Below are positions 20,046-31,786 of a stretch of 64,000 nt of DNA, one piece after another. A model generated the notes under the pieces. It had not been told where the DNA came from. It was given only the letters and a program-made list of their open reading frames with translations, and made no database searches. A program made the position numbers and the translations under genes. The DNA comes from a virus. Within the stretch, counting starts at the first letter, position 1. Every line of letters begins with the position of its first letter. The stretch covers positions 1 to 64,000 of the IMG/VR virus record IMGVR_UViG_3300042197_002762. One strand, 5' to 3'.

Positions 20046-20067
20046 ATTAGTAGTAGGTTGAGTAATC

Positions 20068-20096
20068 AGAATAGCAGCATTTGTGTCGCATGGCAA
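20068..20096 (-). promoter_or_regulatory. Promoter for rIIA-like gene
   Basis: Minus strand TTGCCA (20091-20096), 17 bp, TATTCT (20068-20073); 22-nt leader to the ATG. It lies 20 bp inside repeat R2 relative to the gene. Confidence 0.7.
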
Positions 20097-20115
20097 GAGT
20101 TTTTTTGCAAAAAAA

Positions 20116-20194
20116 TGTAAGTGCCTTAAACTCAACGACTTACACGGCGCGGCGGGGCGCGGCGCTGTAAGTGCCTGGAATTGAACAGGTTACA
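20116..20194. repeat. Composite boundary repeat R2
   Basis: TGTAAGTGCC...ACGACTTACA, core CGGCGCGGCGGGGCGCGGCG, then TGTAAGTGCCTG...CAGGTTACA. It lies between the rIIB terminator and the rIIA promoter. Confidence 0.85.
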
Positions 20195-20211
20195 ACAAAC
20201 ACTATTGGAAC

Positions 20212-20250
20212 AAAAAGTTGGGGGTGAGGCCCACCACAAGCCCCACCCCC
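20212..20250 (-). terminator. Intrinsic terminator after rIIB-like gene
   Basis: On the minus strand GGGGGTG pairs with CACCCCC, followed by AACTTTTTG. It is 19 nt past the stop codon at 20269. Confidence 0.75.
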
Positions 20251-20268
20251 ATGTCGCACCACCGACGA

Positions 20269-21117
20269 CTACCGCTTCCGCATGAAGCGACCTTTCGCAT
20301 CCCTCACATTGTAGTAAGGAGTTTCTTCCGCATCGTAGTTGAATGAGGGGGAATAATCCTCATCATCGGAAGTGAACTCCGTGTTGAGCGGTTTCCGATA
20401 AACCTGCTCAAAGTCCTTGACAACCTCGTAGCGAGCAGTCCGCAACTTCTGGCAGTCACAATCTTTCGGAACCGAAACAACATCCGAAGGATTGATCTTG
20501 ACGATCACCAAGCGCGAGTTGCCACCACCGAAGGTTTTAGCATACTCATAGCTACCAGCATGGAAACCATACGAGCAACCAACATCGGCGTCGTCGCAGA
20601 CAGCGTTGCGCGGCATTTCCAAAACCTCGCCAACACCATTGAAGAACTTGCCACTATGATGATCCATGTAATCCTCGCGGACACTCTTGTAGGCCAAGAA
20701 GTCGCCATCTTCACAGATCGGAAGATGCTTGTGTTCAAGGAACTTGTAAAGCTCCGAAACAGCACGACGAGAAGGATTCGCCATGAGTTTCTCAAGGAAC
20801 TTGGCAAGCGGAGCGAACGGCAAACCATCATCCATGAAGTCGAAGATACGATCCACGACATAGTTGTGCAAGGGTTCACCTTGGTAGTAGATCACGCCAT
20901 CGGCAATCTCGATACCGCCGACATTATCGGCATTGAACTTGCGGGTGATAGACTCTGAAACGTCGAACAGGGAGTCGAGCGTGTCAATGTCTCCAGTAGC
21001 GAGGCAAGTAAGAGCCTCGGTGAAAGACGGATGATTACAAGTCATCGTCTTGGGAGTGCCATCAATTACTGCGGTGATGGACTCGTCGGTTTTGATTAGT
21101 GCGTTTAGTGCTTTCAT
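20269..21117 (-). CDS. rIIB: rIIB-like protein
   Basis: A 282-residue protein. The C-terminal two thirds carry the rIIB signature: PICEDGDFLAYKSVREDYMDHHSGKF, then GEVLEMPRNAVCDD, CSYGFHAGSYEYA, LVIVKINPSDVVSVPKDC and KLRTARYEVV. The N-terminal part (about 1-90) is divergent. It is transcribed first, its end separated from the rIIA gene by a terminator, repeat R2 and a new promoter, so the pair is not a simple operon here. Confidence 0.85.
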   Translation of the reverse strand: MKALNALIKTDESITAVIDGTPKTMTCNHPSFTEALTCLATGDIDTLDSLFDVSESITRKFNADNVGGIEIADGVIYYQGEPLHNYVVDRIFDFMDDGLPFAPLAKFLEKLMANPSRRAVSELYKFLEHKHLPICEDGDFLAYKSVREDYMDHHSGKFFNGVGEVLEMPRNAVCDDADVGCSYGFHAGSYEYAKTFGGGNSRLVIVKINPSDVVSVPKDCDCQKLRTARYEVVKDFEQVYRKPLNTEFTSDDEDYSPSFNYDAEETPYYNVRDAKGRFMRKR

Positions 21118-21125
21118 CGTTTATT

Positions 21126-21154
21126 ATATTATGCGTTTTTGGTCTGATTGTCAA
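21126..21154 (-). promoter_or_regulatory. Promoter for rIIB-like gene
   Basis: Minus strand TTGACA (21149-21154), 17 bp, TAATAT (21126-21131), 8 nt to the ATG. The -35 overlaps the stop region of the upstream gene. Confidence 0.85.
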
Positions 21155-21396
21155 ACTGATTTCTTATCCATTTGGAAAGAAAAATGGCGAACACCAACCA
21201 GCGCGAGAATATCGTGGTTGACCTTGGAAGTCTCGCGCAATACTTTCATGTATTTGGTGAAAATTTGTTTTTTGTTAAGTCCAGCGTCCACCATCAAATC
21301 CCAGAGTTGCTTGTGCATGGCCGTGCCGTAGTGAGCAACGGCGAAAGCCAAGTCCTCATAGCGGCGAACAGAGTAGGTGTCTTTGAGAATCTTCAT
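21151..21396 (-). CDS. Unknown protein
   Basis: An 81-residue basic, mainly helical protein with no recognised family. Its ATG overlaps the stop of the 61-residue gene upstream (ATGA). Its stop codon overlaps the rIIB promoter -35 box. Confidence 0.65.
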   Translation of the reverse strand: MKILKDTYSVRRYEDLAFAVAHYGTAMHKQLWDLMVDAGLNKKQIFTKYMKVLRETSKVNHDILALVGVRHFSFQMDKKSV

Positions 21397-21578
21397 TGTA
21401 GGTCTGTGATTTCGATAGCATTGACGATATACTTCTTGACATTCCCGACAATATCGGGAAACTCAATCAAAAGCGTTTGCTTGTTGTCAAGGTAAGTAAT
21501 CATAGGAACCGAATAGCCTTTTTCGCTCTGGTCGAGCTTTTCAGCAATGCGGTAAATGAGGTCGGTGCTATTTTTCAT
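21393..21578 (-). CDS. Unknown small protein
   Basis: A 61-residue protein with an N-terminal helix and a beta-type remainder. No family recognised. First gene of a two-gene unit; the ATG lies 6 nt after the -10 box. Confidence 0.65.
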   Translation of the reverse strand: MKNSTDLIYRIAEKLDQSEKGYSVPMITYLDNKQTLLIEFPDIVGNVKKYIVNAIEITDLQ

Positions 21579-21584
21579 CCTCTA

Positions 21585-21613
21585 AAGGTATCGCATTTTG
21601 CGATTGGTGTCAA
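21585..21613 (-). promoter_or_regulatory. Promoter for 21578-21151 genes
   Basis: Minus strand TTGACA (21608-21613), 17 bp, TACCTT (21585-21590), 6 nt to the ATG. Confidence 0.75.
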
Positions 21614-21620
21614 GTGTTTT

Positions 21621-21697
21621 TGTAAGTGCCTGGGATTCAAATACTTACGCCGCGCCGCCCCGCGCGCAATTGTAAGTCATTCATTACCAAATAGTTA
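21621..21697. repeat. Composite boundary repeat R3
   Basis: TGTAAGTGCC..., core CCGCGCCGCCCCGCGCGC, right half TGTAAGTCATTC... imperfect. Its right end directly abuts the 3' end of tRNA-Lys. Confidence 0.75.
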
Positions 21698-21769
21698 TGG
21701 AACGGGTGAGGCTCGAACTCACAACCAACGCCTTAAAAGGGCGCTGCTCTACCATTGAGCTACCATTCC
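21698..21769 (-). tRNA. tRNA-Lys (UUU)
   Basis: Acceptor GGAATGG/CCGTTCC, anticodon arm GCGCC/GGCGT with loop CTTTTAA (anticodon TTT), T-loop TTCGAGC, discriminator A. Confidence 0.92.
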
Positions 21770-21777
21770 TCAAATAG

Positions 21778-21850
21778 TGGGGCGAGTAGGATTCGAACCT
21801 ACAACCAATCGATTATGAGCCGACTGCTCTGACCATTGAGCTATCACCCC
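21778..21850 (-). tRNA. tRNA-Met (CAU), elongator-type or Ile2
   Basis: Acceptor GGGGTGA/TCGCCCC with a normal 1-72 pair (so not an initiator), anticodon loop CTCATAA (anticodon CAT), T-loop TTCGAAT, discriminator A. A CAT anticodon could also serve Ile if lysidine-modified; sequence does not settle it. Confidence 0.88.
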
Positions 21851-21933
21851 AGAAATTTAATCAGTCCGTAAATAGCAAACGCCCAGACCAAAATAGTTAC
21901 AGGTAAAGCTACAAATAGAACAATAGATTTCAT
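21844..21933 (-). CDS. Tiny membrane peptide, 29 residues
   Basis: A 29-codon frame that overlaps the stop of the 82-residue gene as ATGA and ends inside the 5' end of tRNA-Met. The product is nearly all hydrophobic (SIVLFVALPVTILVWAFAIY), a single membrane helix. Overlap on both sides suggests selection on the arrangement. Confidence 0.5.
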   Translation of the reverse strand: MKSIVLFVALPVTILVWAFAIYGLIKFLG

Positions 21934-22178
21934 AATTCAAAATATGATTGTTGATATTCAGTTTGTTCTACATCGTAGTCTGGAACCCAGATGTTCTCAT
22001 CGTTATGAGAACGACAAGCCAGTAGCAAATCTGTATGTTCCGTGTAGTCGTGATCGTAATACGGCTGCTCGGAATCTTCGTAATCAACGATTTCCCAAGT
22101 CTTGCCATCGTATTTTACATAGTCACCAATGACGAGCATTTCGCCATCGTAGTCAGCGGGGCAGATGTTTTTACTCAT
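21930..22178 (-). CDS. Unknown acidic protein
   Basis: An 82-residue acidic protein, rich in Asp, Tyr and Glu. The N-terminal half (GDYVKYDGKTWEIVDYE) reads like a small SH3-like barrel as in many phage accessory proteins. No catalytic motif. ATGA overlaps at both ends put it in the 22501-21844 operon. Confidence 0.65.
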   Translation of the reverse strand: MSKNICPADYDGEMLVIGDYVKYDGKTWEIVDYEDSEQPYYDHDYTEHTDLLLACRSHNDENIWVPDYDVEQTEYQQSYFEL

Positions 22179-22501
22179 AGTTTGAATATTGATTCGGGAT
22201 TAGGATAAACTTTTTTGCGTCTAATGTAAAGCCCCCAAAATTTTAGAGCGCGATCTTCGATTTGACAAAAGAGCTTGCCATGATCTAACGTCCCTCCGTA
22301 GAAGTGGCAAACCTCATGGACAACGTAGTAGATGACGAATTTTTCTCCGTGTTTGAACGCCCACTCTGGAATCGAAAACCACCCCTTCGTGGTATAGGCG
22401 CGACCCCGCTTGTTGGGTGTAATTTTGGCCTTGGGTCTAATGGGGAGTCCGAGGAATCTTGCGGTGAGATTTGCGATGGCTTGGATTTCATTTAGTTTCA
22501 T
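22175..22501 (-). CDS. SprT-like metallopeptidase-type protein
   Basis: A 108-residue protein with H62-E63-x-x-H66 in YYVVHEVCHFYGG followed by a third possible ligand in LDHGKLF, the pattern of small SprT/WSS1-like zinc proteases. Such proteins can cleave protein-DNA crosslinks or act on unknown targets. It is shorter than bacterial SprT (about 165) and lacks the C-terminal zinc ribbon. First gene of its operon. Confidence 0.65.
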   Translation of the reverse strand: MKLNEIQAIANLTARFLGLPIRPKAKITPNKRGRAYTTKGWFSIPEWAFKHGEKFVIYYVVHEVCHFYGGTLDHGKLFCQIEDRALKFWGLYIRRKKVYPNPESIFKL

Positions 22502-22512
22502 GGTGTAGCCTT

Positions 22513-22541
22513 ACAGTATGGGATTTTGCGTGTGCGGTCAA
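22513..22541 (-). promoter_or_regulatory. Promoter for SprT-like operon
   Basis: Minus strand TTGACC (22536-22541), 17 bp, TACTGT (22513-22518), 11 nt to the ATG. R4 begins 18 bp upstream. Confidence 0.7.
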
Positions 22542-22559
22542 GATATTTTTTCATTAAAA

Positions 22560-22638
22560 TGTAAGTGCCTGGAAACCAACGAGTTATGCCGCGCGGCGGG
22601 GCGCGGCGGCGTAAGTGCCTGGGAATGAACGACTTACA
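22560..22638. repeat. Composite boundary repeat R4
   Basis: TGTAAGTGCCTGG..., core CCGCGCGGCGGGGCGCGGCG, then CGTAAGTGCCTGGG...GACTTACA. Confidence 0.85.
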
Positions 22639-22659
22639 TAAAAAAGAATTTTTGCAAAG

Positions 22660-22688
22660 AAAAAACTTGACAGGTTGCCCTGTCAAGT
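22660..22688 (-). terminator. Intrinsic terminator after DUF932-like gene
   Basis: On the minus strand ACTTGACAGG pairs with CCTGTCAAGT (ten perfect pairs) around a GCAA tetraloop, followed by a T run. It is 18 nt past the stop codon at 22707. Confidence 0.9.
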
Positions 22689-22706
22689 CTTTCTGAGTTT
22701 GTTCGC

Positions 22707-23486
22707 TTAGGCGAGGACTGCTTCCGCATCCTCAACCCTCGCCAGCGCAACGCCAGCGAGAGGGTCGAGAAGTCCGTGCAGAGAGTCGCTCCGCTTGGGC
22801 AGTGCCAGCACGTTGCCGCGCATGACGTTGGTGAACGAGTTGTGCAAGCCCCACAGGTTGCGTTGCTCTGACCACTCGGCGTGTTCAGGGGTGTGCCACT
22901 GGTCGAGAACGTCCGCCAGTGCCGTCTTGCTGACCGCGCCAACGCGATACGCTTTGGCGATGAGGTCATGCGCCTCAAGGTCGTTGATCGAGCGAGCCTG
23001 ATAAGCCTCGATGCGCTTGGCGTTGTTGCCCCAAGTGTTCAGCAGTTTGCCGAACGCACCGGACAGGAGCATGGGCAGGTCGCGCATGATGAACTTGGTG
23101 TGGCGACGAGCGATCTTGATCTCGTTGTGGAAGGCGAGATTGTCGCAGACGAACGGAGCCGAACCAGCGTTGATGCCAGCAGGGAACGATTTGTCGTGCG
23201 AGTTACGCAGACCGATCACAGTGCCGATGTTCTCCTCTTGCGAGAAGTTGGGGATTCCCGCGACTTGGAACAAGCCGAAGTAGCGGAGACCATTGCGAGC
23301 AAGGGCGTGAGCCTCTTGCGTGATGCTGAGACCAGCGTTGATCACAACCTCGCGCAGACGCTCGACGAGAGCGAAGTGCGGGATGGGCATCCACGTTTCC
23401 GTGGGCGCAGGAGTTGCGATTTGCTGAACTTCAGTGGATTCCACGGCGTGACCGCCGCAGTGCAGTGTTAGGTTTAGGTTTCTCAT
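22707..23486 (-). CDS. DUF932-like phage/plasmid protein
   Basis: A 259-residue protein. The block GLRNSHDKSFPAGINAG followed by FVCDNLAFHNE and a helical C-terminal half fits the DUF932 (YfjQ-like) family found on phages and plasmids, of unknown activity. It has its own promoter and terminator and is flanked by repeats R4 and R5, making it a single-gene module. GC-rich relative to the rest of the window. Confidence 0.6.
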   Translation of the reverse strand: MRNLNLTLHCGGHAVESTEVQQIATPAPTETWMPIPHFALVERLREVVINAGLSITQEAHALARNGLRYFGLFQVAGIPNFSQEENIGTVIGLRNSHDKSFPAGINAGSAPFVCDNLAFHNEIKIARRHTKFIMRDLPMLLSGAFGKLLNTWGNNAKRIEAYQARSINDLEAHDLIAKAYRVGAVSKTALADVLDQWHTPEHAEWSEQRNLWGLHNSFTNVMRGNVLALPKRSDSLHGLLDPLAGVALARVEDAEAVLA

Positions 23487-23494
23487 ACTTCATA

Positions 23495-23523
23495 AGAATA
23501 CGTTGTTTTGCGTGACAGTGCAA
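23495..23523 (-). promoter_or_regulatory. Promoter for DUF932-like gene
   Basis: Minus strand TTGCAC (23518-23523), 17 bp, TATTCT (23495-23500), 8 nt to the ATG. Upstream lies a TTGGCACG block (23574-23581) and R5. Confidence 0.75.
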
Positions 23524-23600
23524 GCGGTTTTTTTGAATTTGATTGAAAATATTTTTATGCCTTTCGGCAAAACTTGGCACGGTTCTTGAATGTGAAAAGT

Positions 23601-23679
23601 CGTAAGGCGTTGATTTTCAACGACTTACGCGGCGCGGCGGGGCGCGCCCTCGTAACCCCATGATTACGAGGGCTTTACG
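23601..23679. repeat. Composite boundary repeat R5
   Basis: Left half CGTAAGGCGTTGA/TCAACGACTTACG is an almost perfect 13-bp inverted repeat. Core GGCGCGGCGGGGCGCGCC. Right half CGTAACCCC...GGGCTTTACG. The stop codon of the 23681-23851 gene abuts it. Confidence 0.9.
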
Positions 23680-23680
23680 C

Positions 23681-23851
23681 CTATTTGAGGAATTTTGCGA
23701 CTTGGATTCGGTTGGCCTTCTTCAGTAGGTCAGTGCGACCCAAGAAACCAGCTTTCTTCCGGCGCGACAAGACAGAGACAACACCAACTTCCTTGCGGAA
23801 GCGAACAGTCTCGCCCTTGTAGTTGTAGATAGCACCTTCGATGAGTTTCAT
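23681..23851 (-). CDS. Small basic protein, unknown
   Basis: A 56-residue basic protein with a beta-type start (GAIYNYKGETVRFRKEVGVVSVL) and a Lys-rich helical end. The ATG at 23851 has a strong Shine-Dalgarno, AAGGAGG, 7 nt upstream, which rules out longer in-frame starts. Second gene after the 74-residue gene. Function unknown. Confidence 0.65.
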   Translation of the reverse strand: MKLIEGAIYNYKGETVRFRKEVGVVSVLSRRKKAGFLGRTDLLKKANRIQVAKFLK

Positions 23852-23867
23852 TATATTTTCCTCCTTT

Positions 23868-24092
23868 CTATTCTTCGTCATCCCCAAACATGGAGTCCCA
23901 CTCTTGGGGAGTGATACCCGTTTTGATGAACTCACGTTCACCAGCGGACAGCATGGGGAAAGCGTCTTGGATGAGCATCCCCGTTTGCCACAGGGTTGCA
24001 CGTTTCCCATACTCCTTGGGGGGGAGAGGGATTTCCATCTGGTTGACTTTGCCAGTGAAGGGAGAACGACGAGTGATAGTGATTTTGTTCAT
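23868..24092 (-). CDS. Unknown small protein
   Basis: A 74-residue protein: a basic beta-type N-terminus (ITITRRSPFTGKVNQMEI) with phage-like small-protein style, then an acidic C-terminus. No recognised family. First of two genes in its unit. Confidence 0.65.
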   Translation of the reverse strand: MNKITITRRSPFTGKVNQMEIPLPPKEYGKRATLWQTGMLIQDAFPMLSAGEREFIKTGITPQEWDSMFGDDEE

Positions 24093-24098
24093 ATTGCT

Positions 24099-24127
24099 AA
24101 TGTATGGGATTTTGAGAAGGATTGCAA
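24099..24127 (-). promoter_or_regulatory. Promoter for 24092-23681 genes
   Basis: Minus strand TTGCAA (24122-24127), 17 bp, TACATT (24099-24104), 6 nt to the ATG. Confidence 0.75.
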
Positions 24128-24130
24128 GGA

Positions 24131-24856
24131 TTATTTTTCAAAAACATACGACCAGTAGCGCGAATCCTGCTTGTCTTGAATCGCGTCCCAATAGAGACAC
24201 CGAGCGATGTAGCAAGGAACATCGTAGGCGCGGCACATACTAATCCAATGCGCTTCGATGTTATCGTAATGTTTTTCGTCTTTAGTTTGGTCGAGTCCGT
24301 AGGCTTGGAACATATGAGTGTCCATGCAGACAACCTCGCACTTGTCGGGATGCATCATTTCCAGAGAGAAGGAAACTTTTGCTTTGCCAAGACCAAGCAC
24401 TTCACCAACAAGCTCGTCACGATGGCCGCGCCAATCGGCGGGAGCGTGAGAGTATTTCGGAATATCTTTCCAGAACTTTTGCTGGAACTGCCACACAAAC
24501 TTTGTGCGATTGTTGTGCAAGCCAACGCCGCTATGCTTGAGCTTGTTGAGAAGAACTTGCTGGTCATGCCACCAATCGAGAGTCTTGATGGCGTTGTAAC
24601 CATTGACGTTGGACTTCCAACTGGTATGGACTGACATAAAAGCAAACAGCCAACGCAACATGGAGTCTTGCGTTCCCTTGGGCGCGATGGAATTCCAGTA
24701 GTTGGTGTATGACACAATGCGCGAGTGGTCGAGAGTGTCAAAGAATTTCTCAACGCGAACGTATTGCGGATTGCGCGTAGGCTTGAGTTCAAGCTCTGGC
24801 TGCACAAGAGCATCAGAGGAGCAACGCATAGGGAGAGGCAGTTGTGTGGTGATCAT
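24131..24856 (-). CDS. HhH-type DNA glycosylase-like protein
   Basis: A 241-residue helical protein. The block RDELVGEVLGLGKAKVSFSLEM (about residues 146-167) looks like the helix-hairpin-helix of the HhH-GPD superfamily, with K160 as possible catalytic Lys, followed by CMDTHMFQAYGL with D179 at the position of the catalytic Asp. This fits a base-excision glycosylase/lyase such as the OGG or EndoIII branch, without the iron-sulfur cysteines. Assignment is by motif only. It has its own promoter. Confidence 0.55.
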   Translation of the reverse strand: MITTQLPLPMRCSSDALVQPELELKPTRNPQYVRVEKFFDTLDHSRIVSYTNYWNSIAPKGTQDSMLRWLFAFMSVHTSWKSNVNGYNAIKTLDWWHDQQVLLNKLKHSGVGLHNNRTKFVWQFQQKFWKDIPKYSHAPADWRGHRDELVGEVLGLGKAKVSFSLEMMHPDKCEVVCMDTHMFQAYGLDQTKDEKHYDNIEAHWISMCRAYDVPCYIARCLYWDAIQDKQDSRYWSYVFEK

Positions 24857-24862
24857 GTTCCA

Positions 24863-24891
24863 AGGATAGCCCTATTTGAAAATTTTGTCAA
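24863..24891 (-). promoter_or_regulatory. Promoter for glycosylase-like gene
   Basis: Minus strand TTGACA (24886-24891), 17 bp, TATCCT (24863-24868), 6 nt to the ATG. R6 begins 17 bp upstream. Confidence 0.8.
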
Positions 24892-24907
24892 CTGGTTTTT
24901 TATAATT

Positions 24908-24975
24908 TGTAAGTGCCTGGAAATGAACGACTTACACGGCGCGGCGGGGCGCGGCGCTGTAAGTGCTTGATAATG
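24908..24975. repeat. Composite boundary repeat R6, fused to tRNA-Cys end
   Basis: TGTAAGTGCCTGG...GACTTACA, core CGGCGCGGCGGGGCGCGGCG, then TGTAAGTGCTTGATAATG. The right hairpin is completed by AGCAC of the tRNA-Cys acceptor end, so the repeat and the tRNA 3' end are merged. Confidence 0.85.
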
Positions 24976-25047
24976 AGCACCTTGCTGGATTCGAACCAGC
25001 GTATAAGAGTTTTGCAGACTCTGGCCTTACCACTTGGCGAAAGGTGC
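24976..25047 (-). tRNA. tRNA-Cys (GCA)
   Basis: Acceptor GCACCTT/AAGGTGC, anticodon arm AGAGT/ACTCT with loop CTGCAAA (anticodon GCA), T-arm CTGG/CCAG with TTCGAAT, discriminator T as required for Cys. Confidence 0.93.
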
Positions 25048-25818
25048 GAAAGTGTTCGGCTGCTCATACTTCCCTCCGTCAACAACCCTTTACGGCCTCG
25101 GGTGGGGCGAATGTGTTGCCACACTCGCAAGCTAACGCGCACCGAACGCGGGTCATGGCGACCATCCTCCTTTGCGGTAATCACTCCGCTTCTTTGGCCC
25201 AAGGATAGGCATCGTGCGTTGATTAGACGCTAGTATGTGTAGATGGCCCTAGACTATAACGGCTTCGGCTTACGTTGCACAACTTTCTTTCTAGACTATG
25301 TTGAGCAAACCATCAAATTATAAAAATGGTGATAGGGAGGCCAGAACTCCCTACCTATGACTCCGTGCCTTCTGGCGGCACCGACATCAAATTGCCTTTC
25401 GGCAACTAGCCCACAAGTTGAACGGAGATGTATCCGCCAGAGCTTGGGAGAATTTCTGAGCTGGAAGTTAATTCTTCTATTTTTGTCTTACGCGTATCCC
25501 ACCCTTCGGGGATGGGTCAGCTCAAATTGATTTCAGCCTCGGAGGGTTTTGTGTAGGACGACAGACCCTTACTTCTGTCCTTCTTTTATTCCGATACTTT
25601 ATTCGGGCTTGTTTTGCAAATTGTAAAAGAACTGCCCAGAGTTGTGATCGATCACAGCTTTATGACTCTTACGAGAGCAATGGGGTCTGGGCGACTCCCT
25701 ATGTTTTTATCTGCCTCGGCGGATGTTTGATTTTCGCTTTCGCGCCACCGCAAAGATCCGGTTAACTTTGCATCTTTTATTTCCGATATTGATTGTCGGG
25801 CAGATTTATTTTTGTGGC
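25048..25818 (-). ncRNA. Large structured noncoding RNA candidate (GOLLD/ROOL-type class)
   Basis: About 770 nt without a convincing gene, lying between an upstream protein gene and tRNA-Cys on the same strand. Pairings found by eye: a three-way junction closed by GCCCAGA (25634-25640) and TCTGGGC (25686-25692) around TGTGATCGATCACA and CTCT/AGAG hairpins; a second junction closed by TGAGCTG (25457-25463) and CAGCTCA (25518-25524) around GAAG/CTTC and CCCACCC/GGG-TGGG; a pseudoknot from CTCCGT (25361-25366) with ACGGAG (25422-25427) and TCTGGCGG (25371-25378) with CCGCCAGA (25434-25441); TAGGGAG/CTCCCTA (25333-25353). On the minus strand two hairpins have GNRA loops: GAAA at 25397-25400 and GCAA near 25117-25120. 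Size, complexity and tRNA linkage recall GOLLD and ROOL RNAs, large phage-associated RNAs often near tRNAs. Exact ends and class are not determined. Confidence 0.65.
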
Positions 25819-26082
25819 TTACGCCACAGATTTTCCAAAGAGCGATACGACTTCCCTATCAACGATCTCGTCGAAGCGGAACCTACGAACACCTTTGCCG
25901 AAGCAGTAGGCGGTGATTCCATTAGCGAACCCATCGAAGGGACGAGAAACGTAGTAGGTATGAACCTCATTGTTTCCGTGATCGGTGTAAGGCCGATATT
26001 TCAGACGATACACAGGATTGGTGAACTGGCCCAGCTTGGAGTCAGCGATTGCGAGTTTGACTTTATTTAGTAGTGCTTTCAT
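25819..26082 (-). CDS. Unknown basic protein, possibly WYL-like
   Basis: An 87-residue protein. Start set at 26082, 6 nt after the -10 box; a longer frame would begin inside the promoter. The C-terminal block VRRFRFDEIVDREV resembles the end of WYL-type domains, which sense ligands or nucleic acids, but the match is short. The stop codon lies in the loop of a TGTGGC/GCCACA hairpin at the edge of the structured RNA region, so it heads the transcript carrying the RNA and tRNA-Cys. Confidence 0.6.
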   Translation of the reverse strand: MKALLNKVKLAIADSKLGQFTNPVYRLKYRPYTDHGNNEVHTYYVSRPFDGFANGITAYCFGKGVRRFRFDEIVDREVVSLFGKSVA

Positions 26083-26088
26083 TTTTAT

Positions 26089-26117
26089 AGAATAAGTCTT
26101 TTTGCGTTCAAAGTCAA
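26089..26117 (-). promoter_or_regulatory. Promoter for 26082 gene, structured RNA and tRNA-Cys
   Basis: Minus strand TTGACT (26112-26117), 17 bp, TATTCT (26089-26094), 6 nt to the ATG. It diverges from the plus-strand promoter at 26162. Confidence 0.8.
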
Positions 26118-26161
26118 CGGGTTTTTTCCAAAAAAAATTTTCACAAATATCCAAAATAGTA

Positions 26162-26190
26162 TTGACAAAATAGCTAAATAGTGATAGGTT
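26162..26190 (+). promoter_or_regulatory. Promoter for plus-strand gene at 26197
   Basis: TTGACA (26162-26167), 17 bp, TAGGTT (26185-26190), 6 nt to the ATG. Confidence 0.6.
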
Positions 26191-26196
26191 AAATAG

Positions 26197-26448
26197 ATGG
26201 ATAGAAATAGTTTACAATTAATAATTAATAATAATAAAGCATTACAAGACTTGGATAGATACTTCAAGGATAGTGGAGAATTGCATCTCATATGTGACAA
26301 AATAGGTAGGGAGCGTGACCCTGAGAACAGGGAACAGCTTATCAGTAAGATGAAGTGGAAGAATAAACAATTTGCAGAATCAATTGTCAAGTTGGCATCG
26401 ATGATAACTACACTAAAGCATAATCCACAAAGTCCTATCGCTCAATGA
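26197..26448 (+). CDS. Unknown helical protein, only plus-strand gene of the block
   Basis: An 83-residue charged helical protein. It is the only rightward gene between 16.6 and 33.9 kb. It ends within the left half of repeat R7, whose left hairpin is incomplete, as if the gene was inserted beside or grew into the repeat. AT-rich codon use unlike its neighbours supports later arrival. Function unknown. Confidence 0.6.
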   Translation: MDRNSLQLIINNNKALQDLDRYFKDSGELHLICDKIGRERDPENREQLISKMKWKNKQFAESIVKLASMITTLKHNPQSPIAQ

Positions 26449-26504
26449 CTTACGACGGGCGGCGGGGCGCGCCGCCGTAAGTGGTTGATGTCCAACGCTT
26501 TACG
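26442..26504. repeat. Composite boundary repeat R7 (left half truncated)
   Basis: Only the distal arm AATGACTTACG of the left hairpin remains; core ACGGGCGGCGGGGCGCGCC and right half CGTAAGTGGTTGA...CAACGCTTTACG are intact. The 26197-26448 gene overlaps the lost part. Confidence 0.8.
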
Positions 26505-26521
26505 CCACTTCCGATTTGGGC

Positions 26522-26555
26522 AAAAAGTCAAACGCCCGTTTGAAGGGGCGTTGAC
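26522..26555 (-). terminator. Intrinsic terminator
   Basis: On the minus strand GTCAACGCCCC pairs with GGGCGTTTGAC (one bulged base), followed by five T. It is 22 nt past the stop codon at 26578. Confidence 0.8.
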
Positions 26556-26577
26556 TATGACACAACTATGACAAAGG

Positions 26578-27036
26578 TTAGTCCTCTGTCTCGCTCACCC
26601 AATCCGGCGCGCCGCCGTCGAGTTGCTGGTAGATGTGCGTTGGAGTTTTGGCGAACAGCATGAAACTTTCGCGTGGGAAAGATTCAAACTCTGCGCGTGC
26701 AGCTTGCGCGGCGTCACGGCGAAACTTTTCGCCATTCGGTTTCTTGTGAAAGCGCGGACGCGCCTTGTATTGTTCGCTCACCGGAGAGTCTTGCCAATTT
26801 GTCATAGTTTCGTATGTCATAGCGCGAAGCATATCCGCTTCCGTGGAGAGGAAGTAGGAGAAGTTATCGGAGAGTTCGTGTAAGTAGCTGCCGAGTTCAC
26901 CGATGCCAGTTGCGCCCCAGTTGAAGAAGCGGTTGAACGTGCGTTCAACTTGTTCGCGTGTTCCGTTGAGGCCGACAGCGATGCCGTTGCCGTATGCGCT
27001 GATGATGATGTTTGCTTGTTCCATTGTGTTTGTCAT
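26578..27036 (-). CDS. Unknown protein
   Basis: A 152-residue protein with an N-terminal beta-type segment (NIIISAYGNGIAVGLNG), a helical middle and an acidic C-terminus. No family recognised. Start at 27036 (MTNTMEQ); a second ATG four codons in is possible. It follows a 44-residue gene by 4 nt. Confidence 0.65.
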   Translation of the reverse strand: MTNTMEQANIIISAYGNGIAVGLNGTREQVERTFNRFFNWGATGIGELGSYLHELSDNFSYFLSTEADMLRAMTYETMTNWQDSPVSEQYKARPRFHKKPNGEKFRRDAAQAARAEFESFPRESFMLFAKTPTHIYQQLDGGAPDWVSETED

Positions 27037-27040
27037 AAAA

Positions 27041-27175
27041 TTAATTTCCGCGAGCGTCGATGTCCTGCCAGTATTTCAGTTCTTGCTCGTCGAGCCAAGC
27101 CTCAAATTCAGAGGCAAACTCGTCGCTTTGGATTTGCGTGGTGAAGTCGTCGTTGATGATGGAGTTCGCTTGCAT
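27041..27175 (-). CDS. Small acidic protein, paralogue of 31568-31780
   Basis: A 44-residue acidic protein. Its first half (DDFTTQIQSDEFASEFE) matches the start of the 70-residue product of 31568-31780 (DDFNTQPQSDEYASEHE); the second halves are unrelated. Both genes begin about 6 nt after a -10 box. Function unknown. Confidence 0.6.
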   Translation of the reverse strand: MQANSIINDDFTTQIQSDEFASEFEAWLDEQELKYWQDIDARGN

Positions 27176-27181
27176 GAGAAA

Positions 27182-27209
27182 AGAATAGCACAGGGGCGCG
27201 AGAGTGCAA
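27182..27209 (-). promoter_or_regulatory. Promoter for 27175 gene
   Basis: Minus strand TTGCAC (27204-27209), 16 bp, TATTCT (27182-27187), 6 nt to the ATG. Preceded by an AAAAAAATC tract like other cassettes. Confidence 0.8.
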
Positions 27210-27242
27210 CGGATTTTTTTGCATTTTTAGAAAGTATTTTTG

Positions 27243-27286
27243 TTGACGATTTCTCAAACGGGCGTTTGAATCCCAAAGTTGGCACG
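27243..27286. promoter_or_regulatory. Palindromic operator and divergent promoter-like cassette (R8 copy)
   Basis: Between the minus-strand promoter and R8 lie GTATTTTTGTTGACG, a 16-bp palindrome TCAAACGGGCGTTTGA (27254-27269) and TTGGCACG (27279-27286). Read rightward, TTGACG and TTGAAT are 17 bp apart and the palindrome overlaps the latter. The same order recurs near 28828-28881, 30105-30131 and 31290-31343. Confidence 0.55.
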
Positions 27287-27305
27287 CTTTCTGCTCCTTG
27301 TTTTG

Positions 27306-27384
27306 CGTAAGTCGTTCATTTTCAAGCACTTACGCTGGCGCGGGGGGCGCGCCGCCGTAAGTCGTTGATTTACAACGCTTTACG
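27306..27384. repeat. Composite boundary repeat R8
   Basis: CGTAAGTCGTTCA...AAGCACTTACG, core GGCGCGGGGGGCGCGCCGCC, CGTAAGTCGTTGA...CAACGCTTTACG. The stop codon of the 27385-27540 gene follows at once. Confidence 0.9.
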
Positions 27385-27540
27385 TTACCGCAATCTATCG
27401 CGCAAGTCGAGGCAACGCTCCCACGCTATGACAAACATTTTCGAGAGTGTCATAAAGCCGTGACGTTCCAATTTTTGCGCGAGGCTGAAGCAACCTTCCG
27501 ACAAGCGGAACAGATTTTTTCGTGCGATTAGGTTTGTCAT
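27385..27540 (-). CDS. Unknown small basic protein
   Basis: A 51-residue helical basic protein (TNLIARKNLFRLSEG start). The ATG at 27540 overlaps the stop of the tiny upstream frame (ATGA), so longer in-frame starts are unlikely. No family recognised. It ends directly against R8. Confidence 0.6.
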   Translation of the reverse strand: MTNLIARKNLFRLSEGCFSLAQKLERHGFMTLSKMFVIAWERCLDLRDRLR

Positions 27541-27608
27541 AGTTTTCCGTTCTGATGAATTGCAAAGGCACACGCAGCCACCACTACAAGCAGGCAGATG
27601 ATTTCCAT
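27537..27608 (-). CDS. Tiny membrane or secreted peptide, 23 residues
   Basis: A 23-codon frame of one hydrophobic segment (EIICLLVVVAACAFAIH) and a polar end, overlapping the next ATG as ATGA. It begins 9 nt after the GP88-like stop. Same design as the other tiny membrane peptides. Confidence 0.45.
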   Translation of the reverse strand: MEIICLLVVVAACAFAIHQNGKL

Positions 27609-27617
27609 AGGGGTTCA

Positions 27618-28301
27618 TTATACACCAACTTGCACCACGAATCCAGAAGTATCGCGGAGAGCTTTGCCCTTTGCTTTGAGTCCGACGATCACACCTTGCG
27701 GATCGAGAAAGCGTAAGTCGCTTTCGTCGCCGTTTATGACAGTCTTGCCGAGGTAGGTTTCGGGCAACTCATTAAAGACAACCGCCACGTTGCCACCAGC
27801 AGCAACAACGGCGTGGACGCGATGCTGATTGTCCTCCTTACGCGAGAAAGTAAGATGATAATTTTTCGGTAGTTCGCCATTCAAAAATTGCATCATGCGC
27901 TGAAGGTTCGGCGTGTAGTCGTAAAACTGAATTGACGGAAAACGCGCCATGTCGATGAGCATATGCCAAGGAAGGTCAGAAAGCACGTTCGGACGCACAG
28001 CAACGGGCATTTTATTTTTAACGCTCCATTTTTCTGCGTTGTGCAATTCCTTATTCATCTGTGCGAGAAACGTGTTGCGCTCGTCGATGAAAAAACGAGA
28101 CTTTGCAAGGCGAGCGTCTTGCACGTTTGAGAAAATGCCCATGCCCGAAGTGTCGAGACAAGCGGCCTCGCATCCTGCCGAGCGATGCGGACAGAATTGT
28201 TTTCCGCTTTTGCCAGCGGGAGAGAGTGACAGGCCGTAAGTGCGCCAGCCGAGTTTCTCGCCTTTTTTGATTTTGGTGTTGTTGGTGCTGAGTAGTTTCA
28301 T
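27618..28301 (-). CDS. GP88-family protein
   Basis: A 227-residue protein with the distinctive pattern of the mycobacteriophage gp88-like family: LSLSPAGKSGKQFCPHRSAGCEAACLDTSGMG with conserved Cys, VAVRPNVLSDLPW, IQFYDYTPNLQRM, LPKNYHLTFSRKEDN, GGNVAVVF, GDESDLRFLDPQGVIVGLKAKGKA and SGFVV. The Cys cluster suggests a metal or iron-sulfur site; the activity is not established. Start at 28301 gives the usual family opening. Confidence 0.8.
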   Translation of the reverse strand: MKLLSTNNTKIKKGEKLGWRTYGLSLSPAGKSGKQFCPHRSAGCEAACLDTSGMGIFSNVQDARLAKSRFFIDERNTFLAQMNKELHNAEKWSVKNKMPVAVRPNVLSDLPWHMLIDMARFPSIQFYDYTPNLQRMMQFLNGELPKNYHLTFSRKEDNQHRVHAVVAAGGNVAVVFNELPETYLGKTVINGDESDLRFLDPQGVIVGLKAKGKALRDTSGFVVQVGV

Positions 28302-28326
28302 GGTGATGATTTTTGCAGATTTTAAG

Positions 28327-28566
28327 TTAGAGGGCAAGAGCTTTTTTCACCCTTGCGATGTCGCGCTTACTGTGCGTGTAGAGTTTCGCGTCGATGCTTT
28401 CCAGATTGGAGAGCAAACGATAGGCGGCGATTTTTTCGCGTGCGTTACGGCGCGCAAACTTTGAGACGATGCTGTTGCGGTCGCGCAAGCTGTTCGTGAT
28501 GTCCTTTTGAAGCGCAACACGCGCATGAATGAGGGCTTCGTAGAGTTCGCGTTTGGTGATGTTCAT
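28327..28566 (-). CDS. Unknown basic helical protein
   Basis: A 79-residue Arg/Lys-rich helical protein, possibly nucleic-acid binding. No family recognised. Upstream TTGCAA and a weak -10 (GAAAAT) overlap the end of the previous gene, so it may have its own promoter. Confidence 0.65.
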   Translation of the reverse strand: MNITKRELYEALIHARVALQKDITNSLRDRNSIVSKFARRNAREKIAAYRLLSNLESIDAKLYTHSKRDIARVKKALAL

Positions 28567-28604
28567 ATTTTTATTTTCTCCGATTTTGAGTTAGGTTGCA
28601 AGGA

Positions 28605-28760
28605 TTATTTTTCGAGAAGTGCCGCAAGCTGTTTGCGAAGCTTGCCCAAGTGATTGAGGAGGACAGTCGTTTGATCGTCGAGCATAGGATCGAGAAGATC
28701 CTCCGCCACTTGTTCGATTTTTGCGGTGAGGGTTTGGATTTGGATTTCTTTCTCTGTCAT
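28605..28760 (-). CDS. Small coiled-coil protein
   Basis: A 51-residue helical protein with heptad-like Leu/Ile spacing (EIQIQTLTAKIEQVAEDLL). ATG 6 nt after the -10 box, so the message is leaderless. No family recognised. Confidence 0.6.
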   Translation of the reverse strand: MTEKEIQIQTLTAKIEQVAEDLLDPMLDDQTTVLLNHLGKLRKQLAALLEK

Positions 28761-28766
28761 GCTTAC

Positions 28767-28794
28767 AATGTATCACAGCCGCGTAAAAATGCAA
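28767..28794 (-). promoter_or_regulatory. Promoter for 28760 gene
   Basis: Minus strand TTGCAT (28789-28794), 16 bp, TACATT (28767-28772), 6 nt to the ATG. Confidence 0.75.
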
Positions 28795-28827
28795 CGATTT
28801 TTTTTCAATTCCGTAAAAGTATTTTTG

Positions 28828-28881
28828 TTGACACTTTTTCAAACAGGCGTTTGAACCACTATGACATTCATTGTTGGCACG
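28828..28881. promoter_or_regulatory. Operator/divergent promoter-like cassette (R9 copy)
   Basis: Rightward TTGACA (28828-28833), 17 bp, TTGAAC; palindrome TCAAACAGGCGTTTGA (28839-28854, one mismatch) over the -10 position; TTGGCACG at 28874-28881 with CTGC in the -12 position. Confidence 0.5.
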
Positions 28882-28900
28882 GTTCCTGCGCACTATGTTG

Positions 28901-28979
28901 CGTAAGTCGCTGATATCCAAGCACTTACGCCGCGCGGCGGGGCGCGCCGCCGTAAGTCGTTGATTATTAGTGCTTTACG
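28901..28979. repeat. Composite boundary repeat R9
   Basis: CGTAAGTCGCTGA...AAGCACTTACG, core CCGCGCGGCGGGGCGCGCCG, CGTAAGTCGTTGA...GTGCTTTACG. The last codons and TAA of the 28967-29110 gene lie inside its right half. Confidence 0.9.
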
Positions 28980-29110
28980 ATGTAGTCGCTGATCTGGCCG
29001 TTAGCCGCCATGCGCTCAAGCCATGTGGAAGTATTGTAGTGCCACAGGCTCATGGCGAGCAGTGAAACAGGCGTTTGAATTCCGAGCAGTTGTTTTATCC
29101 AGTTTGTCAT
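28967..29110 (-). CDS. Unknown small protein ending in the repeat
   Basis: A 47-residue protein with a Trp-containing hydrophobic centre (LLGIQTPVSLLAMSLWHY). The final residues and stop come from repeat R9. No family recognised. Confidence 0.55.
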   Translation of the reverse strand: MTNWIKQLLGIQTPVSLLAMSLWHYNTSTWLERMAANGQISDYIVKH

Positions 29111-29114
29111 AGTG

Positions 29115-29300
29115 TTATGACACCGATTCTTCGTCGGTGCCGAGAATTTTTTCCATGCGCTCTTTCAGTAGCGTATAGACAAGGTGCGCGTCATGCACAG
29201 CGTCAACGCAGTCTTTCCGCATACCTTCCATGAGGAAGTCTTTTGCAAAGAAGCGAACGCCATTTGATTCAAGGGCTTTTTGTATGTTGGGCGTGATCAT
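29115..29300 (-). CDS. Unknown small protein
   Basis: A 61-residue helical protein with a C-terminal acidic tail. The ATG overlaps the upstream stop (ATGA). No family recognised. Confidence 0.6.
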   Translation of the reverse strand: MITPNIQKALESNGVRFFAKDFLMEGMRKDCVDAVHDAHLVYTLLKERMEKILGTDEESVS

Positions 29301-29497
29301 GATTCAGAATCATCGAGGAACATTCCGTCGAAAGCAAGAGGTTTTTCCAGATGGTCAAACATGGTGTTGACATCTTTTTGCAGTTCCTTCTTTTCGTGCA
29401 AGTTGAGGCAAGCTGTCAAAAGCATTACCAGAATGAGGATGAAGGTTGAGAGAGACATTACATAGGCAATGCTGTCGAATGTGATGTATTTTTTCAT
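29297..29497 (-). CDS. Small membrane protein
   Basis: A 66-residue protein: a short basic start (KKYITFDS), one membrane helix (IAYVMSLSTFILILVMLLTA, about residues 10-29) and a charged C-terminal helix. A Cys follows the hydrophobic stretch but not in a clean lipobox. Start at 29497 follows the tiny membrane peptide by 4 nt. Function unknown. Confidence 0.55.
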   Translation of the reverse strand: MKKYITFDSIAYVMSLSTFILILVMLLTACLNLHEKKELQKDVNTMFDHLEKPLAFDGMFLDDSES

Positions 29498-29501
29498 GTA
29501 A

Positions 29502-29591
29502 TTATTTTTTTCGGGAATCAGCCCAGAGGATGAGGAACGCGCAAGCGGAAGGGAAGATGCACAGGTAAAAGAGTGGAACCCAGATTGACAT
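29502..29591 (-). CDS. Tiny membrane peptide, 29 residues
   Basis: A 29-codon frame of one hydrophobic helix (WVPLFYLCIFPSACAFLILW) with a basic end (DSRKK). It is 3 nt downstream of the 71-residue gene and 4 nt upstream of the next ATG. Same design as the other tiny peptides. Confidence 0.5.
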   Translation of the reverse strand: MSIWVPLFYLCIFPSACAFLILWADSRKK

Positions 29592-29594
29592 AGT

Positions 29595-29810
29595 TTATTT
29601 ATATGATCCAACAGGGATGTTGGGCGTTGCAGAGTAGACCGCTTCCAGAAAACGACTTTCATCAAAGCGCGGATTCTGTTCGGTGAAGTATTTCGCAAAG
29701 TCCAAGGCGAGGACTTCGACAGCTTCGTATTCTCCGATGGGAGCGTGTTGTTTTTCAGCGAGACGCTTGCCCAAGATTTTTGCGATGGCCTCGAATTGTT
29801 TTTTTGTCAT
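29595..29810 (-). CDS. Unknown small protein
   Basis: A 71-residue protein with helices rich in Lys, Glu and Ala. Start at 29810, 6 nt after a weak -10 box; a longer frame overlaps the promoter. No family recognised. Confidence 0.6.
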   Translation of the reverse strand: MTKKQFEAIAKILGKRLAEKQHAPIGEYEAVEVLALDFAKYFTEQNPRFDESRFLEAVYSATPNIPVGSYK

Positions 29811-29816
29811 GGTGTT

Positions 29817-29845
29817 ATTGTGGTTTGTTTTGTGGTTAGGGTCAA
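29817..29845 (-). promoter_or_regulatory. Promoter for 29810 gene
   Basis: Minus strand TTGACC (29840-29845), 17 bp, CACAAT (29817-29822), 6 nt to the ATG. Confidence 0.55.
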
Positions 29846-29857
29846 GAGATTTTTTCA

Positions 29858-30037
29858 CTACCAGCGGTTGCGGTAGCGGTCGAGCCTTTCGGCGCGGTTC
29901 ATGCGCTCGATCTCACGCTCGTAAGCGTCAGGGTTGATCTTGTAGGCAGGATCTTCACGATCAATGCCGAGTGGGAGGTCGAGGGTTGCTTCGCGTTCTT
30001 CGTCGCGCCAGCTTCTGGTGTATCCGTTTCTGTTCAT
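29858..30037 (-). CDS. Small Arg/Asp-rich protein
   Basis: A 59-residue highly charged protein with no hydrophobic core, possibly disordered or nucleic-acid binding. ATG 6 nt after the -10 box. No family recognised. Confidence 0.6.
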   Translation of the reverse strand: MNRNGYTRSWRDEEREATLDLPLGIDREDPAYKINPDAYEREIERMNRAERLDRYRNRW

Positions 30038-30043
30038 GTATAC

Positions 30044-30071
30044 AGAATAGCACAGGGCCGCGAAAATGCAA
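30044..30071 (-). promoter_or_regulatory. Promoter for 30037 gene
   Basis: Minus strand TTGCAT (30066-30071), 16 bp, TATTCT (30044-30049), 6 nt to the ATG. The spacer (CGCGG...CTGTGC) resembles those at 27182 and 32175. Confidence 0.8.
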
Positions 30072-30104
30072 CGATTTTTTTTGCGATTGTTGAAAGTATT
30101 TTTG

Positions 30105-30131
30105 TTGACGTTTCGGCAAACGAGTGTTTGA
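30105..30131. promoter_or_regulatory. Operator/divergent promoter-like cassette (R10 copy)
   Basis: Rightward TTGACG (30105-30110), 17 bp, TTGAAA, with a degraded palindrome GCAAACGAGTGTTTGA (30116-30131). This copy lacks the TTGGCACG block. Confidence 0.4.
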
Positions 30132-30162
30132 AAAAAAGACTATGACAAAGAGTGTCATAATG

Positions 30163-30240
30163 CACAAGTCACTGATATTCAAGCACTTACGCTCGCGCGC
30201 GGGGCGCGCCGTCGTAAGTCGTTGATATTCAACGCTTTAC
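30163..30240. repeat. Composite boundary repeat R10
   Basis: Left arm degraded (CACAAGTC) but AAGCACTTACG is kept; core CTCGCGCGCGGGGCGCGCC; right CGTAAGTCGTTGA...CAACGCTTTAC. The stop codon of the 30237 gene lies in its last bases. Confidence 0.85.
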
Positions 30241-30392
30241 TCGTCAGACCAACCGCGAAAAAACTTCGCCTTGCGCGCGAATTTTTTCTTGACACGCATG
30301 GCGAACGAAGGCTTGCAAGTTGTCTTGCGAACACTTCGCTCTATCGCGCGCGCGAGTGGGCGCGTGTCGATTGTCATAATGATTTTGCTCAT
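30237..30392 (-). CDS. Small basic protein, paralogue of 32360-32536
   Basis: A 51-residue very basic protein. The N-terminal half (IDTRPLARAIERSVRKT) matches the 58-residue product of 32360-32536 (IDTKPLAQAIDKSVHRT), while the C-terminal half here is basic and soluble instead of membrane-spanning. Ends inside R10. Confidence 0.6.
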   Translation of the reverse strand: MSKIIMTIDTRPLARAIERSVRKTTCKPSFAMRVKKKFARKAKFFRGWSDE

Positions 30393-30393
30393 G

Positions 30394-30624
30394 TTAGTTG
30401 ACTCCGTAAGAAAACTTTTTGTCGCGCAGTTGCTGAACCTCACGCGCCAGAACGAGGTTCGTTCCACACAAGAGATTCAGTTTGTGCTCGTGCATGGTGA
30501 TGGTGTGCAAGGCTTGTGCCAGCAGTTCTTTCAACTGTGTCATATCAGCCTCCTGCGCCTGGATAGTTTTTTCATGCTTGATGAGAGTCTCCAGCGATTT
30601 TATGATGCCGTCTTGGTTTGTCAT
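30394..30624 (-). CDS. Coiled-coil protein
   Basis: A 76-residue helical protein (IIKSLETLIKHEKTIQAQEA) with a probable coiled coil over most of its length. Start at 30624 (MTNQDG). It ends just before the next ATG. Function unknown. Confidence 0.6.
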   Translation of the reverse strand: MTNQDGIIKSLETLIKHEKTIQAQEADMTQLKELLAQALHTITMHEHKLNLLCGTNLVLAREVQQLRDKKFSYGVN

Positions 30625-30628
30625 AGTG

Positions 30629-30790
30629 TTAGTGTTTAGGCTTGGGTTCGGGGCGAGCACACGGATCGTTGCGGTGACGCTCCTCGGCGTAGCCGAAAAG
30701 GATGTCGAACGCTTGTTCGGGTGTGAGGTTATCTTCGGGTTCGTCGAAGTTCCAGACTTCGGGCCAGCCAGTTGTGGTGTTTTCTGTCAT
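30629..30790 (-). CDS. Small acidic protein
   Basis: A 53-residue acidic protein with a Pro/Lys-rich C-terminus. Start at 30790, 6 nt after a TATACT box; longer frames run back through the promoter and the upstream gene. No family recognised. Confidence 0.6.
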   Translation of the reverse strand: MTENTTTGWPEVWNFDEPEDNLTPEQAFDILFGYAEERHRNDPCARPEPKPKH

Positions 30791-30796
30791 ATTGAA

Positions 30797-30825
30797 AGTA
30801 TAGGAGATGCTTACTCCAAAGGCAA
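30797..30825 (-). promoter_or_regulatory. Promoter for 30790 gene
   Basis: Minus strand TTGCCT (30820-30825), 17 bp, TATACT (30797-30802), 6 nt to the ATG. The -35 lies in the end of the upstream gene. Confidence 0.8.
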
Positions 30826-31014
30826 GCAAATTGTGGACTGGATCGCCAACCCGCACAGGTGCGAGTAGTCGTAACCTTTTTGGTCGAGAGTTTTTTTCAT
30901 CTGTTCGATGCGGCGCGTGGCCTTATTGATCGCCGTGCGAAGCGTGGCCGCTTCGATTTCGATGATGACCGGAAGCTCTCCGGTCTTGGTGAAGGTGATG
31001 ACGTATGGTTTCAT
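30811..31014 (-). CDS. Unknown small protein
   Basis: A 67-residue protein with a beta-type start (PYVITFTKTGELPVIIEIEA) and a basic helix, the style of many small phage proteins. Its end overlaps the next promoter. A TTGACT box sits at the right distance upstream, but the -10 is poor. Confidence 0.6.
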   Translation of the reverse strand: MKPYVITFTKTGELPVIIEIEAATLRTAINKATRRIEQMKKTLDQKGYDYSHLCGLAIQSTICLPLE

Positions 31015-31045
31015 GGTTAGAATTTTAGCAGGTTAGTGGTGAGAG

Positions 31046-31222
31046 TCAAGCGATTTTCTTGACCGCTACCTTCCAGTAGGGGAAGTAAAGCCCCAAGTAG
31101 CGAGCGGTGATTTGCACACCATCTTTGCACCAGATGGTGCGTTTGTTGTTTTGCGAGACGAAGGGGATGCCCTTCATGGCGTTGAGGACGATTTCCTTTT
31201 TGTGGGTTCCTTTTGTTATCAT
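31046..31222 (-). CDS. Unknown small basic protein
   Basis: A 58-residue basic protein with a C-terminal aromatic beta-type segment (ARYLGLYFPYWKVAVKK). Start at 31222, 6 nt after the -10. No family recognised. Confidence 0.6.
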   Translation of the reverse strand: MITKGTHKKEIVLNAMKGIPFVSQNNKRTIWCKDGVQITARYLGLYFPYWKVAVKKIA

Positions 31223-31228
31223 GCTTAC

Positions 31229-31256
31229 ACTATACCACAGATCGCGCAAAACGCAA
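31229..31256 (-). promoter_or_regulatory. Promoter for 31222 gene
   Basis: Minus strand TTGCGT (31251-31256), 16 bp, TATAGT (31229-31234), 6 nt to the ATG. Confidence 0.75.
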
Positions 31257-31289
31257 GGGATTTTTTTGCGATTAGCGAAAGTATTTTTG

Positions 31290-31343
31290 TTGACGTTTTG
31301 TCAAACGGACGTTTGAATCACTATGACATTCATTGTTGGCACG
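31290..31343. promoter_or_regulatory. Operator/divergent promoter-like cassette (R11 copy)
   Basis: Rightward TTGACG (31290-31295), 17 bp, TTGAAT; palindrome TCAAACGGACGTTTGA (31301-31316); TTGGCACG at 31336-31343. Confidence 0.5.
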
Positions 31344-31362
31344 GTTCATGAGCAGCATATTG

Positions 31363-31441: not shown

Positions 31442-31458
31442 CAACATGGGATTTGGGC

Positions 31459-31780: not shown

Positions 31781-31786
31781 AGTGTT

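Follow-up and report, generated by a model that had tools for sequence, protein, structure and literature searches.

Comparative sequence evidence for a conserved, modular non-coding RNA beside tRNA-Cys in a virus record

To our knowledge, the function of GOLLD, ROOL and similar large structured phage RNAs has gone unexplained for years. GOLLD is encoded by phages near tRNAs, extends over several hundred nucleotides, and consists of a constant and a variable part with pseudoknots and kissing loops, and ROOL is found in a phage setting near tRNA islands and also contains pseudoknots and kissing loops (PMC12286853). Pseudo-ToxI of phage PhiTE is a phage-borne mimic of an RNA antitoxin, whose pseudoknotted units can serve as decoys in trans (PMC3475682).

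The window analyzed here is a stretch of 64,000 nt, positions 1 to 64,000 of IMGVR_UViG_3300042197_002762 (178,478 bases for the whole virus record), and contains eight tRNA genes. A preliminary description placed a candidate large ornate RNA of about 770 nt at 25048-25818, free of credible genes and lying between tRNA-Cys and a promoter-bearing gene on the same strand. This setting was confirmed, and the ORFs within 25048-25818 are short, overlap on both strands, and are not credible as genes. Comparison with relatives indicates that the minus strand of 25806-25054 almost certainly encodes a conserved structured non-coding RNA. In the homologues, however, it consists of separate domains rather than one 770-nt fold. 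The feature begins at 25806 and continues to tRNA-Cys, and about 770 nt does not hold as the size of the class because the length of the locus among relatives ranges from about 590 to 850 nt.

Judged from its sequence, the array resembles GOLLD and ROOL in setting and in its constant-plus-variable layout, yet appears to be a different RNA. It shares with GOLLD a length of several hundred nucleotides, a position in a virus record next to a tRNA (tRNA-Cys), constant and variable parts, pseudoknots, and kissing loops. In contrast, its constant part, the core, is only about 117 nt long and also occurs stand-alone, and its domains turn over between close relatives. GOLLD has a conserved 3′ part and a variable 5′ part. 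In the array, the core is accompanied by variable modules on both sides, and the near-3′ module M11 is missing in two relatives (L013 and L014). The phage and tRNA setting, pseudoknots, and kissing loops are likewise common to the array and ROOL, but size and organization differ. The phage-borne, pseudoknotted units of pseudo-ToxI provide a lead for function only: the array domains are larger, mostly of different kinds, and match no ToxI-type family in Rfam. The uniform tandem of short pseudoknots of a type III antitoxin was not found, as only M1 and M2 are related and the rest differ.

Searches with Rfam models support this distinction. A cmsearch with GOLLD (RF02032) over 11 records at E values up to 10 gave nothing at the locus (best score elsewhere 7.7 bits, cut-off 150). 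A cmscan of 24880-26160 against all Rfam families, ROOL included, at E values up to 5 returned the tRNA and two chance matches over it. With Rfam 15 at relaxed thresholds, the window, six relatives, and the contigs L019, L035, and L067 gave tRNAs and chance matches far below the gathering scores. No description of this RNA was found in the open literature, and absence from Rfam is not proof that it has never been described. The earlier suggestion of a divergent GOLLD or ROOL is thus not supported, whereas its alternative, a tRNA-linked large phage RNA of a new class, is supported by the covariation among homologues and the lack of an Rfam match. Two resemblances were discarded: AUAGUC strings similar to the S element of group I introns have no visible partner motif and no Rfam match, and GGAAGCAGCC in L067, which recalls the signal recognition particle RNA, is not retained in relatives.

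The array is flanked upstream by the gene of an 87-aa protein (82-95% amino acid identity in relatives), which has no Pfam or PHROG match. The TTGACT-17-TATTCT site before this gene, also present in L014, is the presumed transcript start and would drive the array RNA. The palindrome beyond tRNA-Cys is a possible end of the transcription unit. It is one of nine GC-rich palindromes of the form CTTACG...GCGGGGCGCG...CGTAAG in window 20125-32341 (others are at 26449-26481, 28924-28956, and 31386-31418), mostly with a constant length of 33 bp, spaced about 1-1.5 kb apart, apparently intergenic, and present in relatives too; they are of the REP-like or terminator type. Elsewhere in the window, 17802-21117 encodes RIIA-like and RIIB-like proteins that are only distantly related to those of known phages, and a Cys/His-rich frame of 163 aa between tRNA-Ile and tRNA-Asp (16814-17305) looks by eye like an HNH-type endonuclease.

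Related viral contigs were fetched through the flanking proteins, and seven that span the intergenic region and are distinct there (L006, L007, L009, L012, L013, L014, and L015) were compared with the window. Alignment and all-against-all comparison revealed conserved blocks joined by AU-rich linkers. The order in the window is M1-M3-M2-M6-core-M10-M11, comprising six compact domains and the larger M11 (Table 1). As read from the alignments, L006, L007, L013, and L015 have M1, M2, and M4 plus various others, L009 is devoid of M1, M3, and M6, the L012 array begins with M4, and L014 retains M1, M5, and the core. The core is the sole module found in every relative, and the other domains are gained and lost. 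Because phages with about 90% identity in their flanking proteins carry different domain sets, we regard the array as modular.

Table 1. Positions of the array modules, core elements, and flanking features in the window.
Feature	Position	Strand	Description
Palindrome, 33 bp	24931-24963	minus	GC-rich; 3′ of tRNA-Cys
tRNA-Cys (GCA)	24975-25047	minus	adjoins the RNA array
M11	25054-25233	minus	several hairpins, pseudoknot UCCUU/AAGGA; directly 5′ of tRNA-Cys
M10	25242-25314	minus	outer stem GAUGG/CCAUC, inner stem UUGCUCAAC/GUUGUGCAA
Core RNA	25334-25450	minus	P1, invariant apical part GCGGAUACAUCUCCGUU, P2, GAUGUCGG, P3, P4
P4 stem	within 25352-25334	minus	followed by U run; terminator-like by scoring
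P4 loop UUCUGGC	25340-25346	minus	half of predicted kissing pair; CUUAACA in L067
P3 loop GCCAGAA	25370-25376	minus	other half of predicted kissing pair; UGUUAAG in L067
P2 GNRA hairpin	25407-25390	minus	GAAA or GCAA loop in close relatives
P1	25450-25443/25417-25410	minus	helix capped by invariant apical loop
M6	25458-25523	minus	three-way junction, outer stem GAGCUG/CAGCUC
M2	25533-25610	minus	M1 homologue; pseudoknot AGGGU/ACCCU
12-mer AGTTCTTTTACA	25622-25633	minus	RNA strand; once per array, 9/9 arrays
M3	25632-25700	minus	GCCCAGA/UCUGGGC with interleaved GGG/CCC pseudoknot
M1	25709-25806	minus	closing stem AUCUGCC/GGCAGAU, hairpins CCGA/UCGG and GCAAAG/CUUUGC
Small gene, 87 aa	25819-26082	minus	upstream of array in all close relatives
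Promoter-like site TTGACT-17-TATTCT	26117-26089	minus	before 87-aa gene; 9/12 consensus matches

Stems or pseudoknots of M2, M3, M4, M6, and M10 are kept via double changes; for M3, M4, M6, and M10, two or three sequences per module provide the compensatory changes. The M3 stem reads GCCCCGA/UCGGGGC in L007, the outer stem of M6 reads GGGCUG/CAGCCC in L006 and GGGUUG/CAACCC in L015, and the inner stem of M10 reads CUACUAACC/GGUUAGUAG in L012. Two three-way junctions had been proposed earlier; such a junction finds support only in M6. M1 and M2 are homologous modules, both with a loop pseudoknot, the sequence of which differs. In M1, the loop of the GCAAAG/CUUUGC hairpin pairs with AUCCG (CGGAU/AUCCG), and the pseudoknot of M2 becomes GCGU/ACGC in L006. 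Both modules are confined to close relatives, and a scan for their motif found the same phage group plus chance matches only. The 12-mer AGTTCTTTTACA is flanked by different modules in different arrays, L067 included, and might mark a site of exchange or processing.

Each strand folds more stably than its dinucleotide shuffles (z of -3.3 for minus and -3.7 for plus, 20 shuffles each); therefore, the folding energy alone gives no choice of strand. Among the kept pairs, many are of the G-U type when the minus strand is read and would be A-C mismatches on the plus strand. Based on these pairs and on the GNRA loops of the minus strand (GAAA and GCAA), which had been described previously along with perfect hairpins that are also present, the RNA was assigned to the minus strand, the same as that of tRNA-Cys and the upstream gene.

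The core was also found by pattern scans of IMG/VR, which miss more distant members, in three further viral contigs. Near the locus, L019 has no protein similar to those of the window phage, L035 has a few small ones, and L067 has one. Throughout 11 records, there is one core per record. In L019 and L035, it stands alone, without the other modules, and follows small ORFs. P1 has eight positions, which keep an identical register throughout the four lineages and of which 7 or 8 pair in each (CUCCCAAG/CUUGUGGG, CUAACAGG/CCUGUUGG, CUGUUAUU/ACUAACAG, and UUCGUAGU/ACUACAAG), and the P2 stem varies by double changes. P3 is GUGCC-GCCAGAA-GGCAC, and P4 is a longer hairpin. Their loops are complementary over 7 bases (GCCAGAA x UUCUGGC) and over 6 in L019. 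In L067, the entire kissing pair is swapped for another with full complementarity, and the P4 stem is changed too; within the sequence comparison, we consider this replacement the strongest single piece of evidence. The linkers of 11-15 nt are long enough to span a stacked kissing helix, and the kiss is therefore probably formed within one molecule, but it could alternatively form between molecules. The invariant strings of the core are GCGGA, UCUCCGUU, and GAUGUCGG, and GCGGAUAYAUCUCCGUU is also given as invariant. An additional short pseudoknot could arise from pairing of ACAUC with GAUGU, although L009 and L012 have one mismatch in it.

The pseudoknot of the preliminary description fared less well. 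Both strings of TCTGGCGG/CCGCCAGA exist, but their pairing is unsupported across lineages. It is available only in close relatives and, with wobble, in L019, and it cannot form in L035, which has AACTTGCGG, or in L067, which has TCCTAGCGG together with CTATGTTAAGA in place of CCGCCAGA. Its 3′ half coincides with hairpin P3, including the loop that would kiss the P4 loop. Because it is impossible in L035 and L067, we treat this pairing as a single-sequence artefact or an alternative state of some lineages. In L019 and L067, five of the six pairs of the second helix, CTCCGT/ACGGAG, are retained, but the helix is lost in L035 and is unproven.

The covariance model R1 was built from the close relatives plus L019. 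L035 and L067 were withheld from it, and it recovers them at 2.7e-17 and 5.7e-11, respectively (E-values rough). In alignment A5, 7 pairs show double changes, compared with a mean of 1.9 after shuffling (0 of 500 shuffles reach 7). The core alignment with L035 and L067 (A6) gives 20 pairs against a shuffled mean of 6.7, a count slightly affected by one spurious row (L013, minus strand). These controls ignore the kinship of the eight close phages, and the four-lineage comparison is independent of them. The helix strings of the core, M11, and the other modules were picked manually, and a script was then used to check them. A DNA similarity search of 50,697 phage records plus plasmids gave tRNA and chance matches only, an exact-pattern scan of bacterial genomes gave 7 chance matches, and R1 found nothing in 1,183 sampled bacterial genomes from three phyla under strict filters that could miss weak members. 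The L067 contig has a stretch with ten tRNAs in 12.7 kb and, at 7886-8899, a frame that by eye resembles adenylosuccinate synthetase, as in phages making modified purines.

M11 covaries in its hairpins and small pseudoknot (12 pairs against a shuffled mean of 4.9), and model R2, built without the window, finds the M11 of the window at 1.5e-12. In L067, M11 lies directly before tRNA-Asn, downstream of the core and AGTTCTTTTACA. It is missing in L019 and L035 as well as in L013 and L014. Because L012 keeps M11 while having lost tRNA-Cys, and tRNA-Cys of L013 begins no more than about 15 nt after the core, on its strand, neither M11 nor the core is simply a tRNA leader. A coding frame in the M11 region was rejected, since it gives a Cys-rich peptide in the window and a different peptide in L006/L007, and the sequence changes track hairpin pairing. 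A hammerhead-like CUGAUGA in M11 of relatives is missing in the window and has no stem II.

In our model, the transcript would start at the promoter of the 87-aa gene and run through tRNA-Cys. Where a tRNA is present, cleavage there by RNase P would define the 3′ end and leave a stable RNA. The core would serve as the constant domain, in which the 7-bp kissing interaction holds P3 and P4 together. The exchangeable domains would be binding heads for host or rival factors, and during infection the RNA would be a trans-acting scaffold or decoy of modular design. The domains appear to be independent of the tRNA because M11 persists in L012 and the core stands alone in L019 and L035. We consider this whole model, from independently folding domains on a tRNA-linked transcript through RNase P release to the trans-acting scaffold or decoy, about evenly balanced. 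The trans-acting role by itself is plausible but falls somewhat short of an even chance. More tentatively, the locus might be the RNA counterpart of a phage accessory-gene island, in which self-folding domains are added to and removed from a constant kissing-loop core, each of them directed at its own host or rival factor, and AGTTCTTTTACA marks where the exchange takes place.

A multimeric ornate particle of the GOLLD/ROOL type, without common descent, is unlikely. The P3 and P4 loops would then pair between molecules to build a ring or cage, possibly with variable domains or the tRNA inside, which would suit the conservation of two mutually complementary 7-nt loops as a pair and the tRNA-rich phage setting with a conserved and a variable part, as in GOLLD (PMC12286853). 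However, free domain turnover and the solitary core of L019 and L035 are hard to fit to a rigid particle, and the linker permits an intramolecular kiss.

It is also improbable that the core is a cis-acting 3′-end element, protecting the mRNA 3′ end of the preceding small gene or terminating at P4 and its U run, while M11 shapes the tRNA precursor. P4 with its U run does look like a terminator, and the core could end the transcript instead of sitting inside it. The cores of L019 and L035, starting within about 20 nt of a stop codon and accompanied by no other modules, would fit such an element as well as a trans-acting RNA, and M11 abuts the tRNA. A terminator, however, would cut off tRNA-Cys in L013, the genes upstream in the different lineages have no family match in common, and the invariant GCGGAUAYAUCUCCGUU and GAUGUCGG would be needless for termination.

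The invariant unpaired bases might bind a ligand or protein that selects between the P3-P4 kiss and TCTGGCGG/CCGCCAGA, as in a riboswitch or attenuator controlling readthrough past P4. Both of these mutually exclusive pairings are possible in close relatives and L019, but the alternative is missing in L035 and L067, and there is no consistent regulated feature downstream (a fresh promoter-like sequence in L035, a second terminator-like hairpin in L019), making this highly improbable. A chance fold of intergenic sequence, or cryptic coding, is scarcely credible: symmetric inverted repeats would also make both strands beat shuffles, but the compensatory changes in nearly every module and the cross-lineage model matches contradict it.

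Read as a modular RNA with a constant core, the locus would represent another, smaller system beside GOLLD and ROOL. Since its core is defined, mutants of most helices can be designed from the compensatory changes, and deletion variants of most domains exist in nature, the function should be testable one domain at a time. Should the domains prove to be decoys or binding heads, they would constitute a phage RNA accessory repertoire comparable to small anti-host proteins.
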